A DNA stretch of 64,000 bases, taken from Snodgrassella alvi. GTDB taxonomy: Bacteria; Pseudomonadota; Gammaproteobacteria; Burkholderiales; Neisseriaceae. Below, piece after piece: positions 11,302-45,109 of the stretch. The position numbers and the translations under genes were made by a program. The notes beneath the pieces are model-generated. The model was not told the DNA's origin and did not search any database. It saw only the letters and a program-made list of their open reading frames with translations. The DNA lies in NCBI RefSeq assembly GCF_002777425.1, contig NZ_MDVC01000115.1, forward strand, positions 62,001-126,000, given 5' to 3'. Position 1 is the stretch's first letter, and every line of letters begins with the position of its first letter.

Positions 11302-11355
11302 ACTGTCTAAAATTAAGTGACGCCATGCCGAGCTTATATTTTAGGCAGTATATCT
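11302..11355 (+). terminator. Imperfect inverted repeat, likely luxS terminator
   Basis: ACTGTCTAAAA (from 11302) pairs with TTTTAGGCAGT (to 11349) with one G-T wobble; TTAAG and CTTA continue the stem inward. A short pyrimidine-rich stretch (TATCTTTTTC) follows. The loop is long, so termination efficiency is uncertain. Confidence 0.5.
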
Positions 11356-11576
11356 TTTTCCCTGTAAATGTAGCCAGATACAGCGCAGATTTATCCCCCG
11401 ATATAAAAAAACTAATAAAACTGAAAAATTAATAATTTTTTTTACTGTTTCATTCAAAATGAGACAAATCAAACCAAACTGTTTGTGAATCAACAAAAAT
11501 CATTACATCGCTTAACCCACCCATTATGAAGAAGCGGATATAGTCAGTTTTGACAAGTCTTTTTTTTAAAGCAAAA

Positions 11577-11624
11577 AACCAGTATATTGTGTTCAGAATA
11601 ACAGTTGACCACTACATTTTGTGT
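11577..11624 (+). promoter_or_regulatory. Pair of NrdR-type boxes upstream of nrdA
   Basis: Two 16-mers match the NrdR consensus acaCwAtATaTwGtgt at 13 of 16 positions each by my alignment. Box 1 (11577-11592) is centred on CAGTATATTGTGT and box 2 (11609-11624) on CACTACATTTTGTGT. Their starts are 32 bases apart, about three helical turns, the known arrangement for the repressor NrdR. The rest of the 386-bp gap between luxS and nrdA is AT-rich with no other gene; a TTGACA at 11550-11555 has no well-spaced -10 that I can see. Confidence 0.7.
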
Positions 11625-11669
11625 CGTCACTGTTTTTTTCTGCTTTACTTGTGCTAGAAAGAATCACTC

Positions 11670-13949
11670 ATGAATGCGGTAGCCAATCTCAAAGTAACCA
11701 AACGTAACGGAAGTTTGGAAGACATCAATCTGGATAAAATTCATAAAGTTGTTACCTGGGCAGCAGAGGGACTGGATAATGTATCCGTATCTCAGGTAGA
11801 ACTACGCTCACACATTCAGTTTTACAATGGTATTCGCACGGATGACATTCACGAAACCATTATTAAGGCAGCCGCCGACCTGATTTCTACAGAAACACCA
11901 GACTATCAGTATCTGGCTGCCCGTCTGGCTATCTTCCATTTACGCAAAATTGCTTTCGGCCAGTTCGAACCGCCACATCTGTATGACCATGTAACCAGCC
12001 TGACTGAATCAGGCAAATACGATAAACACATATTACAGGATTATTCACGAGCGGAGTTTGATGAACTGAATGCCTGTATTGACCATAATCGCGACCTAAC
12101 GTTCTCCTATGCAGGAGTCAAACAGCTCGAAGGCAAATATCTGGTACAAAACCGGGTTACCAAACAAATCTTTGAAAGCCCACAGTTCTTATATATGCTG
12201 GTAGCAATGTGTCTGTTTGCCCGCTATCCGCAGACAAGCCGACTGGAGTATGTAAAAAAATTCTATCACGCCATCAGTACCTTCAAAATTTCCCTGCCCA
12301 CACCAATTATGTCTGGTGTGCGCACACCAACACGCCAGTTTTCTTCCTGCGTGCTGATTGAATGCGATGACAGCCTTGACAGCATCAATGCCACCACCAG
12401 CTCGATTGTCAAATATGTATCCCAGCGAGCCGGCATTGGTATTAACGCAGGCCGTATTCGCGCTCTGGGCAGCGAAATACGCGGTGGTGAAGCCCAGCAC
12501 ACCGGCTGCATCCCGTTTTATAAAATGTTTCAGGCGGCGGTTAAATCATGCTCACAAGGAGGAGTACGCGGCGGAGCAGCCACCCTGTTCTATCCCTTAT
12601 GGCATCTGGAAGTAGAAAATCTGCTGGTACTGAAAAACAACCGTGGTGTGGAAGAAAACCGTGTCCGTCATCTGGATTACGGCGTGCAGATTAACCGCCT
12701 GCTGTATACCCGCCTGATTAAGGGTGAAAACATCAGCCTGTTTTCACCATCAGAAGTACCGGGGCTGTATGACGCATTTTTTGCTGATCAGGACGAATTT
12801 GAACGCCTCTATGTCTTATACGAAAAAGACAGCAGTATTACCCGTCGCAGTATTCCTGCTGTTGACCTGTTCTCACTGTTAATGCAGGAACGCGCCGGTA
12901 CCGGACGTATATATATCCAGAATGTCGACCACTGCAATACCCACAGTCCGTTTGATCCCAAACTGGCACCGGTACGCCAGTCCAACCTGTGTCTGGAAAT
13001 TGCCCTGCCCACCCGTCCATTGAACGACATCAATGACCCGGATGGTGAAATTGCCCTGTGTACCCTATCGGCATTCAATCTGGGCGCACTGGAAAATCTG
13101 GAAGAACTGGAAGAGCTGGCCGAGCTCGCTACCCGTGCTCTGGATGCCTTGCTGGATTATCAGAACTATCCCATCAAGGCTGCCGAACTGGCTACCATGA
13201 ACCGGCGTACACTAGGTATCGGGGTTATCAACTTTGCTTACTATCTGGCCAAAAACGGCGTGAAATACAGTGATGGCTCAGCCATCGGCCTTACCCATCG
13301 TACATTTGAGGCCATCCAGTACTACCTGCTCAAAGCATCGGTAAAACTGGCAAAAGAGCTGGGTGCCTGCCCTAAATTCAGCGACACCACCTATGCACAA
13401 GGCTTATTGCCAATTGATACTTATAAAAAAGATTTGGATAAAATCTGTCAAGAACCGCTACATCTGGACTGGGAAGCCTTGCGTGCTGATATCGTCAAGC
13501 ATGGCCTGCGCAATTCCACTCTGACAGCACTGATGCCTTCAGAAACATCCAGCCAAATTGCCAATGCCACCAATGGTATTGAGCCTCCGCGCGGACTGGT
13601 ATCTGTAAAAGCATCCAAAGACGGCATTCTCAAACAAGTTGTGCCAGAATTTGAACGCCTACATAACCAGTATGAGCTGCTGTGGGATATGCCAAACAAT
13701 GAAGGCTACCTGCATCTGGTGGGTATCATGCAAAAATTCATCGACCAGTCGATATCAGCCAATACCAACTATGACCCGCAACGCTTTGAAGGACAAAAAG
13801 TTCCGATGAAGCAATTAATCAAGGATTTGCTGACAGCCTATAAATTCGGCTTGAAAACCTTGTATTACCAGAATACCCGTGATGGTGCCGACGACATGCA
13901 GACCAGCATTCAGGATGACGGCTGTGCCAGCGGTGCCTGCAAAATCTGA
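11670..13949 (+). CDS. nrdA: Ribonucleoside-diphosphate reductase, alpha subunit (class Ia)
   Basis: NrdA is the large catalytic subunit of aerobic ribonucleotide reductase, reducing NDPs to dNDPs with the radical generated in NrdB. The 759-residue protein starts with an ATP-cone (VTKRNGSLEDINLDKI) used for dATP feedback. The active-site cysteine is C441 in NLCLEIALP. The redox-shuttle pair C752 and C757 is in the C-terminal DDGCASGACKI, almost identical to E. coli. The gene follows two NrdR-like boxes. Unusually, a terminator-like hairpin separates it from nrdB. Confidence 0.97.
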   Translation: MNAVANLKVTKRNGSLEDINLDKIHKVVTWAAEGLDNVSVSQVELRSHIQFYNGIRTDDIHETIIKAAADLISTETPDYQYLAARLAIFHLRKIAFGQFEPPHLYDHVTSLTESGKYDKHILQDYSRAEFDELNACIDHNRDLTFSYAGVKQLEGKYLVQNRVTKQIFESPQFLYMLVAMCLFARYPQTSRLEYVKKFYHAISTFKISLPTPIMSGVRTPTRQFSSCVLIECDDSLDSINATTSSIVKYVSQRAGIGINAGRIRALGSEIRGGEAQHTGCIPFYKMFQAAVKSCSQGGVRGGAATLFYPLWHLEVENLLVLKNNRGVEENRVRHLDYGVQINRLLYTRLIKGENISLFSPSEVPGLYDAFFADQDEFERLYVLYEKDSSITRRSIPAVDLFSLLMQERAGTGRIYIQNVDHCNTHSPFDPKLAPVRQSNLCLEIALPTRPLNDINDPDGEIALCTLSAFNLGALENLEELEELAELATRALDALLDYQNYPIKAAELATMNRRTLGIGVINFAYYLAKNGVKYSDGSAIGLTHRTFEAIQYYLLKASVKLAKELGACPKFSDTTYAQGLLPIDTYKKDLDKICQEPLHLDWEALRADIVKHGLRNSTLTALMPSETSSQIANATNGIEPPRGLVSVKASKDGILKQVVPEFERLHNQYELLWDMPNNEGYLHLVGIMQKFIDQSISANTNYDPQRFEGQKVPMKQLIKDLLTAYKFGLKTLYYQNTRDGADDMQTSIQDDGCASGACKI

Positions 13950-28439: not shown

Positions 28440-28690
28440 TTGTAACTTTCAGACGCGACTAAAACATTTAGGAAAGCCACAGCCTAGATGCTTGCCAGTG
28501 ATGCTTAGTACCGACATAATCATTAAAGCATCCTGTAATTTGGGTTGATATTCATAAGAACAGCTTACGGCAAAGTTCTTTGACAGGAATACCGGCTTGA
28601 TGTTCAGTCATCTTTTTCATGTTTAAATCCTCTTTGGGTTAATGGAGAGAATTTTCTACTGTTGGGCGGTACTATTTTAGGGAATAGTCA
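28440..28690 (-). mobile_element. Decayed IS3-family insertion sequence remnant
   Basis: On the minus strand an ATG at 28620, preceded by a good ribosome binding site (AGAGGA), opens a 22-codon frame reading MKKMTEHQAGIPVKELCRKL before a TGA at 28552. AGIPVKELCRK is typical of the N-terminal helix-turn-helix of IS3-family OrfA, and the MKK start also fits. The rest of the transposase is missing. A 16-base word, CRGTACTAYTTTAGGG, occurs twice just outside it (28667-28682 and 28691-28706), perhaps part of the old element end. Confidence 0.6.
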
Positions 28691-28695
28691 CAGTA

Positions 28696-31600
28696 CTACT
28701 TTAGGGGGGAGTTATGTATCAATTCTAACAATGGGATATCAGCAACATCATTAGGAATAAAGGGATCATCTTCATCCAAATCCACACCAATACGATCAAC
28801 ATCATTTAAGCCAATTTCCCATGCCCATCTAACATCTAACGCATTCATTTCTATACCTAAGCTATCTTTTCGTGGGAAATCAGTAGTAATACTCTTTAAC
28901 ATTGCATCACATCCAAGATAGAATTTTCCGCAGGAATGGTAAGCTGCAAGAAATCTGTCTAGATTGACATTGTTATTGGGAGTTATTTTATTAATTCGAC
29001 TGATCATTGTCATTCTTTTGGTCATTGGGGCATTCTTCATATTCTCAGATATCAGTACCCTATAATGAGCTGGATTTTTAACTGAAATACCTTTAACAAT
29101 ACATACACGTAATCTGGATTTACTATTTAATAAGCCTACTGATGATATAAGGTCTTTAAAAATATCTTCACCTACACTAGCATCTTTAAACAATAAATAT
29201 AACCCCGGGTAACATGATTTGAATTGAACGAAACCCACCCCTTGCCAGAACGTTCTATCCCATAAACGAGGTTTAATTAAATTTTGTATGTAATAATCTT
29301 TATGTGTTATATTTTGTGTACTAAATTTCTCTTCCGATGTTCTCTCTCTTCCAAAAATTGGATCACTACCCCCATTCATCTCCAATACTTTAGGAAATTC
29401 ATTATCCCAAGATTTGTTTCTTAGCAGAGGATAAGTTCTCTTTTCAACACTAGTGGAATAAATTTTCTTAATTTGTTGGTCGATATCATTTCCTAGAACA
29501 TTTTCAATGGCTTTGACACAAGCACCAAAGTTAATTGCTCTTTCAAATGCTGCATCTTCAAAGATCATCTTTTGAATGTATTCTGTATTTTTTATAAGAA
29601 ACAACTCAGGGAGAAGATCAAATACCAAATTTTTAAATTCGTTTATAATTTTTTGTTGATCATCGATTTTAAAGAGACTTTTGTCGAAACCAGCACAGTT
29701 AATTGTAAGATTTAGCTTTCCACCATCACTATTTATCTCGTGTGATAATGATAAATCATCTTCATCTTCTGCTACTATTTCAATAACTAAGAATGCTTCT
29801 TTAAGATGAATGTTATCAACTGCACAAGTTGCAAAAGCACCTTCTAAAAGTGCTAAGACATTAGCTGAAAACTCTGTAAATGGTGAACGGTTTGGAAAGC
29901 TAATTTCTATTTTGCATCCAAAAATAAAAGATTTATATAGTCCTCGTTTCTGTTGATATCCAATTATGCATTCACTGTTGAATCCAGTATCAAAATCACG
30001 AACCTTTTGTAAAAAATCATCTTGCTCATGATTGGCTGTAGTCCCGTATTCACGTTCAAAATCTTCAATATAACCTAACGAGTATTTAAGGCAACCAGAT
30101 GATACAAATAACCTTAACTTATCAAGTTCGTCGGGTACGTTAATTTGATGCTCTAACTCTTTCAGATCAGCGTTTAAAATAAGTTTGCTTATATAAAAGT
30201 CAATTTGCTGATTTTCTTCCTCGCCAAATGAGTTATCACTAATATTTTGGTTAATAATCAAAAACAATTCATACCATAAAAGAGCATGTGCTAATTTTCC
30301 AAGTTTAATTTCTATAAGGCATAAATGGTAATAAGTATTAGCCTGCTTTAGTGAAATCTCATCATATTTCCAATAGTTATCAGTAATCAAAGAAGCTGAT
30401 AGTAGTAAGCAAGAACGTGAAATCCATAGTAATCCAATAGATTCGTAAGCATAAGCTATAGCTTTTAATGATAAGATTAACTTATCACGTGATTCTTCTT
30501 TATATAGCGGGATAAGAGATTTTCCTAGATGCTTTATTGCTTCATAGAAGTGGCCATTTTGGACTTTCTTTATGCCCCTTCTTAGATTTAATAACGCTCC
30601 TTTAACATCACCATCTCTTAGAGCAGATTGTTCTGTCAGGTAGTCTAATAATTTCTCATACGCATCAACGTCAAAAAAAATATCGCTCAGCTCATTCAAA
30701 AGATGAAAGCTTTTTTCAAAGGGGTAGCCAATTAAATTCTCACTTTTTTTAATAATATTATATAACTCTTCAAAAACAGGAGAAATATCTTCTATGTTTG
30801 AAAAGGTTGTCATATTATAAATGGCTTTATAAGTTTGAGCTGTAAGCGAATTACTGGGCCGCGATTCATCCTTTGCTATTTCATCTAATTTGTATAACAT
30901 ATTGCGCTCAATACTCTCAATATCGATTGTAGATATTGCAGCATTGTTAAGTTTTATATAACTTTTATGGACTGTAACTAAGTTTAAAATTTTCTCCCAT
31001 TTTGAAGAGTTAGTCGATGATGCTATACAGTTATAGGCTAATTGAAGATTTTCTTCAAATATATTAAAATCTTCCATCCAAAAAAGGGACTTCCAAGCAT
31101 AATGATAATATGCATCCAATAATTGCTGGTTTGTCCCAAATTTTGTTGAAATTTTTATAGCTCTTTCAAATAAACCTTGTGTTTCAATTAATGGTTTCTC
31201 AAGCTCAGCACTCAATTCTGCAATTTCTAAAAAAACATCCACTTGCTCATATGAAATTTCAGACGGGTTTACGTTATCTCGGATATACTCAGTTAGTTCA
31301 TCATATTTCTTTTGTTTTCTATAATCATTCTCACCAAAAATAATCTCTCGTTTATATTGTGTTGGAATTGATAATGTTTCAATAGTCAATTCTTCAAAAT
31401 GATTTTTGTAAATCTGATCTAGTAGCCAATTACTATCTAGTACACGAACGTCGATTCCTGTTTGTGTTTGTAGTTCATCTTCAACTTCCGAGCGAATATT
31501 AGATTTGGCAGATTGATTCGTAATACAGAATATCTTTGTATAACCACGTCCTGTTTCTTTTATTTTAAATACATCTTCACGGCATTTTTTCTTCCAGTCC

Positions 31601-31959
31601 TTACGTGTACTTACAGCAAAGGCCCAGCGCTCTTTATTTGATGCTTCATTAATCCCTTCGAACCAAAGAAGTTTACTCTGTTCTGAAACAGGAAAGGTTT
31701 GTGTATCGGTTTTACCATCGCCTCCAGCAACAGGACCTGTCTGTTCAAGAAGATTAGGACAAATGATTTTTTCACATATTTTTTTCGCAAAATCTTCGAA
31801 TTGTAATTCTTGATTTCGTGTACTTAACGTTGAAAGGAAGTGTTCAAGTACAACTCTATCTAAAGAGCCAGTTTCTCGAATCGATGAGTCAGAAAATTTT
31901 TCAGGACGACGGCGTTTAAGGAATTCTTTGAATGAGAATTTGACATCCTGTACATTCAT
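28696..31959 (-). CDS. Large putative defence protein: PD-(D/E)xK-like nuclease domain plus helical repeats
   Basis: This 1087-residue protein is the main accessory gene of the window. Residues about 30-190 look like the restriction-endonuclease-fold domain found at the N-terminus of several antiphage proteins (Cap4/Avs-type). GGDGKTD at 79-85 supplies the acidic residues, RWAFAVSTRKDW at 111-122 the strand with the active lysine, then TKIFCITNQ (141-149) and GIDVRVLDSNWLLDQI (168-183). Residues about 205-640 are helical and TPR-like (for example HFYEAIKHLGKSLIPLY). Residues about 640-1087 are an unrecognised conserved-looking region. I see no Walker A motif, so it is not a STAND NTPase. Base composition is clearly AT-richer than the neighbours, pointing to transfer. 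GGAG precedes the ATG. No methylase or second gene accompanies it. The last codons lie within an IS-like repeat, so the C-terminus may be altered. Confidence 0.75.
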   Translation of the reverse strand: MNVQDVKFSFKEFLKRRRPEKFSDSSIRETGSLDRVVLEHFLSTLSTRNQELQFEDFAKKICEKIICPNLLEQTGPVAGGDGKTDTQTFPVSEQSKLLWFEGINEASNKERWAFAVSTRKDWKKKCREDVFKIKETGRGYTKIFCITNQSAKSNIRSEVEDELQTQTGIDVRVLDSNWLLDQIYKNHFEELTIETLSIPTQYKREIIFGENDYRKQKKYDELTEYIRDNVNPSEISYEQVDVFLEIAELSAELEKPLIETQGLFERAIKISTKFGTNQQLLDAYYHYAWKSLFWMEDFNIFEENLQLAYNCIASSTNSSKWEKILNLVTVHKSYIKLNNAAISTIDIESIERNMLYKLDEIAKDESRPSNSLTAQTYKAIYNMTTFSNIEDISPVFEELYNIIKKSENLIGYPFEKSFHLLNELSDIFFDVDAYEKLLDYLTEQSALRDGDVKGALLNLRRGIKKVQNGHFYEAIKHLGKSLIPLYKEESRDKLILSLKAIAYAYESIGLLWISRSCLLLSASLITDNYWKYDEISLKQANTYYHLCLIEIKLGKLAHALLWYELFLIINQNISDNSFGEEENQQIDFYISKLILNADLKELEHQINVPDELDKLRLFVSSGCLKYSLGYIEDFEREYGTTANHEQDDFLQKVRDFDTGFNSECIIGYQQKRGLYKSFIFGCKIEISFPNRSPFTEFSANVLALLEGAFATCAVDNIHLKEAFLVIEIVAEDEDDLSLSHEINSDGGKLNLTINCAGFDKSLFKIDDQQKIINEFKNLVFDLLPELFLIKNTEYIQKMIFEDAAFERAINFGACVKAIENVLGNDIDQQIKKIYSTSVEKRTYPLLRNKSWDNEFPKVLEMNGGSDPIFGRERTSEEKFSTQNITHKDYYIQNLIKPRLWDRTFWQGVGFVQFKSCYPGLYLLFKDASVGEDIFKDLISSVGLLNSKSRLRVCIVKGISVKNPAHYRVLISENMKNAPMTKRMTMISRINKITPNNNVNLDRFLAAYHSCGKFYLGCDAMLKSITTDFPRKDSLGIEMNALDVRWAWEIGLNDVDRIGVDLDEDDPFIPNDVADIPLLELIHNSPLK

Positions 31960-32197
31960 TATTGTTTTACTCCATTGGTTACCGTATCAAACCCTTATGT
32001 TTACCAGCTTTAGATATCATTTATACAACTTTTTAGAGTAAAACACTATAGGATATTATGTTGAAGCAAACTGACTTCATATGACATCTCAAGTTAAAAT
32101 AACAAAAATAAATGTCTGTGGAAGTCTTAATTTTCACAATTTATTACTTACTCATAGTTTTATTGTTTGAAAAGGTGTTACCCCATTCCATTGGAAT
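31960..32197. other. AT-rich spacer between the accessory gene and recR
   Basis: This 238-bp stretch is AT-rich and should contain the minus-strand promoter of the defence-like gene (candidate -10 GTATAAAT on the minus strand near 32019-32026). No terminator for recR is visible, so readthrough from recR is possible. No gene is supported here. Confidence 0.4.
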
Positions 32198-32815
32198 TTA
32201 TTTAATGTTGCGCCGCTCATATACAGCTTGCGCTAAGGTACCGGCATCTACATATTCCAGCTCGCCGCCTAGAGGCATACCCTGCGCCAGTCGAGTGATT
32301 TTGGCCGGAAAATCCGCTAGTAACTGAGACAGAACATAAGCTGTTGCATTGCCGTCTGCGGTGAAACTGGTAGCAATGATGATTTCATCTACTTCATGTT
32401 CCTGTAGGCGAGTAATCAGCTTATCCAGAGCAATCGCCTTTAAATCTGCTCCCTGCGCTGGACTAACCTGCCCCATTAGCACAAAATACAGGCCATCATG
32501 GCAGTTGGCAGCCTCCATACTAGCCACATCCACCGGCATATGCACAATCATCAGCCGTTTAGGATCGCGCTGCTCGTCGGCACAGATATCACACAATTCA
32601 CCTTCACAAAAAGTGTTACACAAACGACAATGGTGTACCTGCAATAGAGCCGCCTGAATAGCTGCTACCAGTTCTTCAGCTCCGGCACGTTTATGCTGTA
32701 ACAATTCATAGGCCATGCGCTGCGCTGTTTTGGGACCAACATTCGGCAACACCTTCAATGCGTTTGTTAAACGACTCAATGCATCAGTTGATTTAGGGCT
32801 CATTCCGTTACTCAT
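32198..32815 (-). CDS. recR: Recombination protein RecR
   Basis: RecR acts with RecO and RecF to load RecA at single-strand gaps. The 205-residue protein has the helix-hairpin-helix LPNVGPKTAQRMA near residues 23-35 and a zinc finger with C63, C66, C75 and C78. A Toprim domain follows (MIVHMPVDVASME onward), with the C-terminal GMPLGGELEYVD Walker-like motif. The start at 32815 is the longest; an internal ATG at 32803 (MSPKS) is equally plausible because neither has a good ribosome binding site. It completes the conserved dnaX-ybaB-recR order. Confidence 0.95.
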   Translation of the reverse strand: MSNGMSPKSTDALSRLTNALKVLPNVGPKTAQRMAYELLQHKRAGAEELVAAIQAALLQVHHCRLCNTFCEGELCDICADEQRDPKRLMIVHMPVDVASMEAANCHDGLYFVLMGQVSPAQGADLKAIALDKLITRLQEHEVDEIIIATSFTADGNATAYVLSQLLADFPAKITRLAQGMPLGGELEYVDAGTLAQAVYERRNIK

Positions 32816-43660: not shown

Positions 43661-43744
43661 AACCATATAAAGAAATTACACCATCAACGTTCGGTGGAAT
43701 ATATACACGAGGCACAACTCAATATATTCTGGAAAGAATTTAAT

Positions 43745-45109
43745 ATGAAGCAATCGATTGACCTGACAGCCTCAGAAAGAAAGTTAGTGTTTGCTATGAC
43801 ACTATCTAGTATATTGCCATTATTAGATAGCAGTATTGTTAATGTTATTTTACCCTCAATTTCGAATGACATTAATACCTCTTATGCTTATATGCAATGG
43901 GCTGTTACCATATATATGCTTGCTTGCGCAGCTGGCATATTACTATCACCTTATGTACATGAAAATTTTGGACTCAAGAAAGCATGGGTATGCTCAATTT
44001 TTGTCTTTCTTGTTGGTTCTATATTAGTTGGATTTTCATATAACCTGGTTTCTTTAATCTTGTATAGATGTCTACAGGGTTTTGGTGCAGGAATTTTAAT
44101 TCCTATTACCCAATCTACAATAGCAACTTATTTTGGTAAGGAAAGACTAAAGCCGGTTATGGCATTGATTGCTATTCCATCAGTCTTTGCCCCTGCACTA
44201 GGGCCAATTTTTGGAGCAATCATATCAGAACAGTTAAATTGGAGAATAGCTTTTTTTATCAACATACCTTTAGTACTTATGGCTTTTTTATTTGGCAGGA
44301 CGACAATGCCTGATAATAAAACGTCTAAATACAATATGAATATTTATGTATTAATGACATTTTTAATTGCTTTAATAATATTTTTCATCTCTATTAAAAA
44401 TATCATTTCTGGGCATTTTTTTGATATTTTTAATATTATTATGCTAGTTTTAGGTATTGGTTTGATGATGGTTTCGCTTATTATTAATAACAAGTCAGAC
44501 AGTAAACTGATCGATTTAAGTTCATTTAGTTGTATTCAATATTCGTTTGCAATAATTATGGGATTTCTGACGTCACTTATCTTTTTTGGTTTCATGATTT
44601 TTTTTCCCTTAATACAAGCAATAAATGATAATATATCTATTACATATATTGGTATGTTGCTAGCTCTACAAGGTGTAGGTGCTTGGTTGGCTAGAAAATT
44701 TATTTATGAATCGCTAAGTGAGATAAATTCATTTCTAATTATTGGTGTAGGATTAATAATATCAGCAATAAGTATATTAATAATTCAAGTAGGTGGCAAC
44801 GCCTTTGAAATTATCGGTTTTACTGTTCGAGGTTCCGGATTAGGCGTCGCCACGATTGCTGTTCTCTCTTCTCCATTTGAGTTCTGTGATAAAAATCAAA
44901 TTAAGGACACGAGCGCTATCACGCGTGTTACACAGCAAATTGGTGGTGCATTTGGAGGCGTATTATCAGGAATATTAATCAACCTCACTCAACATCAAAT
45001 AATTTCAATAAACTGCGCTTATCAGGCAATGTTTTTTTTGTCTCTGGCTTTTGGTTTTCTAGCGGTTATTGTCTATATTTTCTTTGGCCGAGTGAATACA
45101 AGGATTTAG
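43745..45109 (+). CDS. MFS multidrug efflux transporter, DHA2/EmrB-like
   Basis: A 454-residue major-facilitator protein with twelve or more hydrophobic helices. Motif D1-like LLDSSIVNVILPSI near residues 26-39, LYRCLQGFGAGILIP and ALGPIFGAIISEQLNWRIAFFINIP (motif C region, given in parts) match drug:H+ antiporters of the EmrB/QacA group. Its AT-rich codon use differs sharply from hemB before it, and a decayed transposase follows, both suggesting acquisition. GGAAAG precedes ATG 43745; an earlier in-frame ATG at 43694 lacks a site. No EmrA-like partner or regulator is present. The substrate is unknown. Confidence 0.85.
   Translation: MKQSIDLTASERKLVFAMTLSSILPLLDSSIVNVILPSISNDINTSYAYMQWAVTIYMLACAAGILLSPYVHENFGLKKAWVCSIFVFLVGSILVGFSYNLVSLILYRCLQGFGAGILIPITQSTIATYFGKERLKPVMALIAIPSVFAPALGPIFGAIISEQLNWRIAFFINIPLVLMAFLFGRTTMPDNKTSKYNMNIYVLMTFLIALIIFFISIKNIISGHFFDIFNIIMLVLGIGLMMVSLIINNKSDSKLIDLSSFSCIQYSFAIIMGFLTSLIFFGFMIFFPLIQAINDNISITYIGMLLALQGVGAWLARKFIYESLSEINSFLIIGVGLIISAISILIIQVGGNAFEIIGFTVRGSGLGVATIAVLSSPFEFCDKNQIKDTSAITRVTQQIGGAFGGVLSGILINLTQHQIISINCAYQAMFFLSLAFGFLAVIVYIFFGRVNTRI

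Follow-up and report, generated by a model that had tools for sequence, protein, structure and literature searches.

Avs-type nuclease sensors couple sensing to killing by means of a STAND nucleoside triphosphatase (NTPase), and Avs4 among them has a large C-terminal recognition part. Shedu (SduA) is a nuclease defence made up of a single protein. Here, a gene of Snodgrassella alvi is compared with these systems; it occupies positions 28696..31959 on the minus strand of a 64,000-nucleotide stretch of contig NZ_MDVC01000115.1 (the window), and coordinates given below for parts of the gene are on the same strand. The host seems to have acquired this large gene, a mobile one, in whose product a DNA-cutting domain is combined with a long helical scaffold and with an end module that another immune-type protein family also possesses. 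With a probability of roughly 0.6, the product is a mobile single-protein antiphage system, an Avs-like sensor-nuclease that operates without a STAND NTPase. An earlier interpretation made from the DNA letters (the sequence-only reading) had proposed a stand-alone nuclease with helical repeats as a possible undescribed antiphage system, and it is supported in its broad lines by the results presented here.

The open reading frame is intact, begins with ATG and encodes 1087 amino acids, with nuclease, tetratricopeptide repeat (TPR) scaffold, middle region and C-terminal domain in one protein. On its translation, GGDGKTD was located at residues 79-85, RWAFAVSTRKDW at 111-122 and TKIFCITNQ at 141-149, where they had been claimed to lie. 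The AT-richness ascribed to the gene was also observed, with a G+C fraction (GC) of 0.327 overall and of 0.237 at third codon positions (GC3), against GC/GC3 values of 0.492/0.508 and 0.480/0.422 in two flanking genes. Judged by eye rather than by family search, we take one flank to be IlvA-like and the opposite one to encode RecR-, YbaB- and DnaX-like proteins. The host genome holds a single copy. The ratio of nonsynonymous to synonymous substitution rates (dN/dS) was 0.12-0.13 for the gene when measured against three relatives of ~80% protein identity. Relatives were assembled into a 14-row alignment (A1) spanning Pseudomonadota, Cyanobacteriota and Bacillota and into a second alignment of 11 rows (A6); full-length relatives are present in both. 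Three rows of A1 belong to the 80% clade, ten are plasmid sequences and one is a faecal phage record. The Pantoea row of A1 lacks the N-terminus; the active-site columns described below are covered by 13 rows. Given the low dN/dS and an alignment that extends across three phyla, the gene is more than a chance reading frame.

The nuclease domain comprises residues ~33-205 (31345..31863), with the core modelled at residues 33-199. The AlphaFold2 (AF2) model of residues 1-212, with a mean predicted local distance difference test score (pLDDT) of 76.3, displays the helix-strand order of a PD-(D/E)XK core. When this model was compared with known structures by VIA, the top rows were AspBHI (Z 10.9 over 139 residues, 4.0 Å) and Avs4 (Z 10.6 over 140 residues, 3.2 Å), followed by MspJI (Z 9.9 and 9.7), FokI (9.0), PaqCI and EcoT38I, and then by Cdn1, Can2, SduA, a nickase and Card1. 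Rows lying within 1 in Z count as tied, as is the case for AspBHI, MspJI and Avs4. A Z of at least 8 was obtained for 12 of the 999 aligned chains, and the first 16 rows were made up of restriction enzymes, Avs4, SduA, the nickase, Can2/Card1/Cdn1-type proteins and VC1899; HamA came lower, at Z 6.0. The best Foldseek match of the same model was Avs4 (E 5.9e-4). In the predicted structure, residues 33-199 are a PD-(D/E)XK nuclease core sharing the common alpha-beta fold, as had been anticipated for the N-terminus. The further suggestion that this domain is of the Avs/Cap4 type holds for the likeness to Avs4 at the level of fold; by sequence, neither a Cap4 nor an Avs model was matched. Within the protein, dN/dS was lowest in residues 1-205 (0.07-0.08, against the same three relatives).

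Column counts in both alignments point to a putative active site. Its helix glutamate, E55 (31795..31797), is E in all 13 covered rows of A1 and in 10 of the 11 rows of A6 (Q in L068). Residues D81, K83, D85, E110, S117, W122, K125 and D129 occur in every covered row of A1 and A6; they include both aspartates of GGDGKTD (31705..31725) and the fixed positions of the segment from residue 117 to 129 (31573..31611), which reads S117-x-(K/R/Q)119 and then K125 and D129. Position 120 varies freely in the two alignments, so K120, which had been singled out earlier as a key residue, was not borne out. Position 119 is R in the window clade. K125 may replace the lysine expected at 119 in a (D/E/Q)-x-K arrangement. 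Two sister proteins that also begin with the nuclease, L029 (1016 residues) and L030 (993 residues), match the nuclease profile (A2) with E 3e-22 and 3e-18; inspection by eye indicated that both aspartates are kept in them, that K83 is not, and that a lysine stands near the place of K125. Given the column conservation, the sister proteins and the variability of position 120, we propose that E55, D81/D85 and K125, not K120, form the active site.

The sister proteins have a related N-terminal nuclease but a different C-terminus. L030 has an additional match to a portion of the TPR profile (E 7e-9), and neither protein matches the middle and C-terminal profiles (A4 and A5). Scans of viral contigs with L007, L030 and L016 as queries gave no further relative. 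As a separate observation, the sister gene at 5959-9009 of L029 adjoins Shedu, and that at 5902-8883 of L030 adjoins IetS and a kinase.

Residues 214-648 (30016..31320) form paired helices in the full-length AF2 model (mean pLDDT 75.6, predicted template modelling score 0.56), and the TPR-like helices claimed previously correspond to this predicted superhelix. By Foldseek and VIA it resembles LGN, OGT and Rap proteins, with a best Z of 15.0. Given that a Z near 13 can reflect an arrangement common to repeat proteins, this match names a fold and no function. Ten of the 14 A1 rows and seven of the 11 A6 rows lack the Walker A pattern; in the remaining rows (the window clade and Pantoea) it reads AI(K/R)xxGKS and lies within a TPR helix. 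A conserved Walker A was not observed, and neither a Pfam nor a PADLOC NTPase model matched, in agreement with the NTPase-free architecture that had been put forward; on these sequence grounds the protein lacks the STAND NTPase that marks Avs/STAND sensors. The TPR superhelix is followed by an alpha/beta region at residues ~660-870 (29350..29982), the least conserved part of the protein, with a mean column identity of 35% and a dN of 0.15-0.17 for residues 641-880. This middle region gave nothing below E 0.59 against PDB sequences.

The C-terminal domain (residues ~886-1060, ~180 residues; 28780..29304) links the protein to another group of effectors. Profile A1 matched this domain in the genome-encoded proteins L024 (369 residues, E 3.5e-39) and L025 (362 residues, E 4.4e-31) and in L080, a 372-residue protein of a Lactiplantibacillus plasmid (E 1.5e-18). 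A1 contains no SEFIR protein and its scores are consequently independent; those obtained for SEFIR proteins with profile A5 are high by construction, two of them having been A5 rows. L024 and L025 have Pfam SEFIR domains (E 1.3e-14 and 8.7e-18), L080 carries a TIR annotation, and all three match the PADLOC bSEFIR model with E 2.3e-56 or better, L080 over nearly its whole length. In these short proteins the C-terminal domain stands directly behind SEFIR, without TPR. Among the 32 SEFIR-model loci searched, it was found in three and not found in 29. Given its occurrence in nuclease-TPR proteins and in only 3/32 of these loci, the domain is, as judged from sequence, portable between effectors and is not shared by SEFIR proteins at large. 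The idea that the validated bSEFIR protein ends in this same domain was dropped, because the C-terminal pieces of L080 alone gave no bSEFIR match and 29/32 loci were without it; the sharing is put forward for some SEFIR/TIR proteins only. On the Lactiplantibacillus plasmid, which is small, an AbiEii-type gene lies two genes upstream of the SEFIR/TIR gene with the C-terminal domain (L080 3060-5100).

Searches for a described counterpart of the whole protein were negative within their scope. No model of Pfam, NCBIfam or PADLOC 2.0.0 matched the window protein at E ≤ 1, and a known system of the same full architecture, which was looked for among these models at that threshold, was not found. Membership of Cap4 or Avs by sequence was rejected for want of a match at E ≤ 1 in the three collections. 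None of the 14 A1 members matched a Pfam family, and a single one met one TPR model at E 0.05. Sequence searches of the PDB with A1, A2, A4 and A5 returned nothing convincing, the best hit, with E 0.0023, being of the TPR part to a designed protein (5HCS_TGFBR2_1). Structure searches with the whole model returned rows filled by the TPR, so that residues 660-1087 were not probed, and the viral library yielded nothing at E ≤ 0.001. A single PHROG, to which no function is assigned, matched the window protein with E 0.036 over 33 residues. In the literature as far as it was accessible, the protein was not recognised in any description; an E. coli relative such as WP_039268304.1 may be among the systems of PMC13092281, and the epithet 'undescribed' is accordingly not proven.

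Full-length relatives are carried on plasmids, prophages and islands. At eight of 14 loci (L002-L015), a hand-picked neighbour matches a PADLOC model with E ≤ 1e-10. These are a DpdE/ZorD-type helicase ~4 kb from the Kluyvera copy, GajA and GajB (Gabija) beside the Rahnella copy, an MkoC-like protein in Nostoc, an Avs2-like protein in Agrobacterium Sta004, HamA and HamB (Hachiman) directly downstream in Sphingobium, IetS and IetA in Burkholderia, a kinase (a generic match) in Cupriavidus, and SAVED adjoining a broken gene copy in Bradyrhizobium. The scan left out L003, L005, L007, L008 and L014 and covered only the phosphatase of L009. Defence-type names were borne by 12 of the 154 neighbouring coding sequences of L005-L015, against none of 222 in five control stretches taken from five of the same plasmids (Fisher p 1.7e-5). 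The count was manual, its word list was compiled once the loci were known, and toxin-antitoxin genes were excluded on both sides; it is hence a pointer and not a clean test. The survey of homologues called for earlier was in this way favourable, and by annotation and model matches the family is associated with defence genes and mobile elements.

Outside the 14 loci, the island of E. coli 300490 contains an HEC-04-like gene together with the relative and is bounded by repeats, one of which lies inside a tRNA-Thr gene. The gene is on the paoD side in E. coli 300490 and GZ04-0086 and beside mscS in NWU_3; the Kluyvera copy is near a reading frame similar to the annotated integrase of NWU_3. Relatives were found on five viral-type contigs; one of them, L020, represents the Kluyvera locus, and another, L021, covers residues 1-447 only. 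On viral-type contigs, O- and P-type replication genes were observed beside L066, a primase and a terminase beside L069 and tail fibre J beside L017; one neighbour of L068 gave no PHROG match. Two side observations concern these neighbourhoods. The phage-borne relative of L066 is flanked by SIR2-like and FRG-domain genes (669-2585 and 11329-12420), possibly a phage-encoded defence cluster, and pairs of an S8 peptidase and an ATPase recur beside the family or its sisters (L012 3185-6883, L015 3914-7375 and L030 803-4299), being IetS/IetA by PADLOC in L012, IetS in L030 and so named by annotation only in L015.

The nearest relatives, of ~80% protein identity, are from Kluyvera, Photorhabdus and Rahnella, the Rahnella copy being frameshifted. 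With the Kluyvera gene as query, 26 of 5426 E. coli genomes gave a match, of which 23 cover at least 80% of the gene; among the matches listed, 5 of 20 are annotated as two proteins. In a sample of the phylum, four of 398 genomes matched, the host included, and two of those four have the C-terminal domain alone. By these counts the family is sparse and broadly scattered, a pattern that a mobile gene would be expected to show.

A survey of 61 genomes, the host and its surroundings, gave a match in the host alone (0/60 related genomes). In the stretches read, both flanks were present and the gene absent in congeners G001, G004, G005, G007 and G009, and only one flank fell inside the stretch read for G008 and G010. 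In congener G002, the counterpart of window 31906-32300 (88.7% identical) comprises the upstream region and codons 1-18, and the rest of the gene is gone; in five other congeners, matches start only at window 32195-32200. The segment 31960..32195 (minus strand) is therefore likely to be an upstream region that came with the gene, and probably holds its own promoter. We infer that the gene may have entered the site in an ancestor common to the host and G002 and later been lost in G002. Given the ~80% identity of Enterobacterales relatives, the 0/60 count and the 5' remnant in one congener, the window copy looks recently acquired. A 13-nucleotide inverted repeat, possibly an operator, is present at window 31960-31972 and 32036-32048, just upstream of the gene; an altered version is present in the G002 remnant, and none was apparent in the Enterobacterales copies.

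At the other end, the gene abuts an interspersed repeat (28565..28703, no strand assigned) of which many copies exist in genomes of the genus, perhaps the end of an insertion sequence. Similarity to the ~80% relatives stops at window 28714-28717, and the genus-wide repeat reaches 28703, from which we infer that the element end probably altered only the last few codons. In G002 (L053), a sequence resembling this repeat adjoins the truncated gene. Elsewhere in the window, positions 43694-45109 (plus strand) encode a 471-residue protein that resembles, by eye, a major facilitator superfamily transporter; it lies partly in a stretch of 32% G+C and may likewise have been acquired.

The antiphage reading draws on the predicted nuclease fold, on acidic residues and a lysine retained across three phyla, on the TPR superhelix, on the C-terminal module also used behind SEFIR/TIR, on the defence-type neighbours and phage contexts, on sporadic carriage and on purifying selection. 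A mechanism for the Avs-like sensor-nuclease can be outlined as follows. In the uninfected cell the nuclease would be held inactive. The TPR, middle and C-terminal parts would bind a phage component or infection signal, and the resulting change of conformation or oligomeric state would release the nuclease, which would then cut DNA and bring the production of phage to a halt, most likely at the cost of the cell. The C-terminal domain may be the trigger-binding or assembly module, because it occurs directly behind SEFIR, without TPR, in short proteins; the TPR would offer a further recognition surface. In PMC13092281, PD-(D/E)XK domains are reported in 13 of 31 validated systems, and a TPR label appears in two figure legends.

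Several observations weigh against this explanation. According to section 6 of PMC13092281, only one of 24 low-score units with remote defence homology, among them six PD-(D/E)XK nucleases, protected, and a nuclease fold alone is for that reason weak evidence. RNA polymerase Rpb5-type chains appear from VIA row 17 (Z 7.1), and the SduA row (Z 7.5) carries a root mean square deviation of 9.3. The geometry of the active site stays putative because the loop with D81 and D85 (segment 75-96) has a pLDDT of only 35-51 and is of low confidence in both AF2 models. Position 119, usually lysine, is K in 10 of the 13 covered A1 rows, R in the window clade and Q in L066 and L067. As for the neighbourhoods, the 19 neighbours scanned with PADLOC were a manual selection in which kinase matches are generic; two of the 19, the L006 NACHT protein and the L009 phosphatase, had no PADLOC match, and neighbours of L005, L007 and L008 bore no defence-type name.

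Foremost among the rivals stands a modification-dependent restriction enzyme, in which the C-terminal region would read modified phage DNA and the N-terminal nuclease would cut it, as in MspJI or AspBHI. It is consistent with the presence of AspBHI (Z 10.9) and MspJI (9.9, 9.7) among the first four VIA rows, tied with Avs4, but the TPR structures matched (LGN, OGT and Rap) are protein- or peptide-binding scaffolds, the same C-terminal domain also occurs behind SEFIR domains, and no Pfam family of any kind matched the protein. We know of no case of DNA reading by SEFIR-linked domains. On balance, this rival is considered unlikely. A role in prophage or plasmid stability, or in competition against rival mobile elements rather than lytic phages, would account for carriage by prophages, plasmids and islands; the gene is, however, also found beside full defence systems (Gabija in Rahnella and Hachiman in Sphingobium), and such a role, which overlaps with defence in practice, is judged distinctly improbable as the explanation. 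Finally, that the nuclease of the window clade is catalytically weakened (R119 for K), acting by binding alone or decaying, fits R or Q at 119 in the clade and the broken copies (the Rahnella frameshift, the 5/20 split among the E. coli matches listed and the congener's 5' remnant) but is very improbable with dN/dS lowest in the nuclease domain (0.07-0.08) and with E55, D81, D85, K125, D129 and the window reading frame intact.

If the antiphage reading is true, a nuclease combined with a TPR scaffold and a portable end domain, but with no NTPase, would represent a simpler activation route. The end domain being common to short SEFIR proteins, its binding partner could explain two defence-type families at once. 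More tentatively, and at what we would put somewhat short of even odds, the C-terminal domain may be an undescribed recognition or assembly module that is swapped between PD-(D/E)XK-on-TPR and SEFIR/TIR killers, giving NTPase-free immune receptors parallel to Avs. Surveys with PADLOC 2.0.0 would miss the family, including in the 26/5426 E. coli genomes, because the window protein has no model at E ≤ 1 and 1/14 members meets a TPR model at E 0.05.

Among known systems, the CBASS effector Cap4 had been likened to the window protein at the N-terminus; no Cap4 or SAVED model matches the protein, and no cyclase gene is apparent by eye beside its gene. Shedu, a single-protein nuclease defence as is proposed here, is like the window protein in the SduA row of the VIA comparison (Z 7.5, deviation 9.3), and a Shedu gene adjoins the sister protein in M. 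gordonae; it differs in that the window protein matched neither DUF4263 nor SduA, and Shedu is not known to include a TPR or this C-terminal domain. With bSEFIR (PADLOC PDLC03957, the comparison being with the model and not with the published protein), the likeness is that three proteins matching the model carry the window C-terminal domain behind SEFIR/TIR; the window protein itself is without a SEFIR domain, with no Pfam SEFIR or PADLOC bSEFIR match at E ≤ 1. Avs4 (AVAST type 4, a STAND immune sensor; PDB 8dgf) is alike in the shape of its N-terminal nuclease (Z 10.6 over 140 residues) and in possessing a large C-terminal recognition part, to which that of the window protein is likened, and unlike in that the window protein lacks a conserved Walker A and any sequence match to Avs models. 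The predicted TPR superhelix at residues 214-648 would, as a putative target sensor, compare with the sensing parts of Avs/STAND proteins. As far as can be judged from sequence, the protein would work in an Avs-like manner, yet dispense with the defining STAND NTPase, and would share only its C-terminus with some SEFIR proteins.

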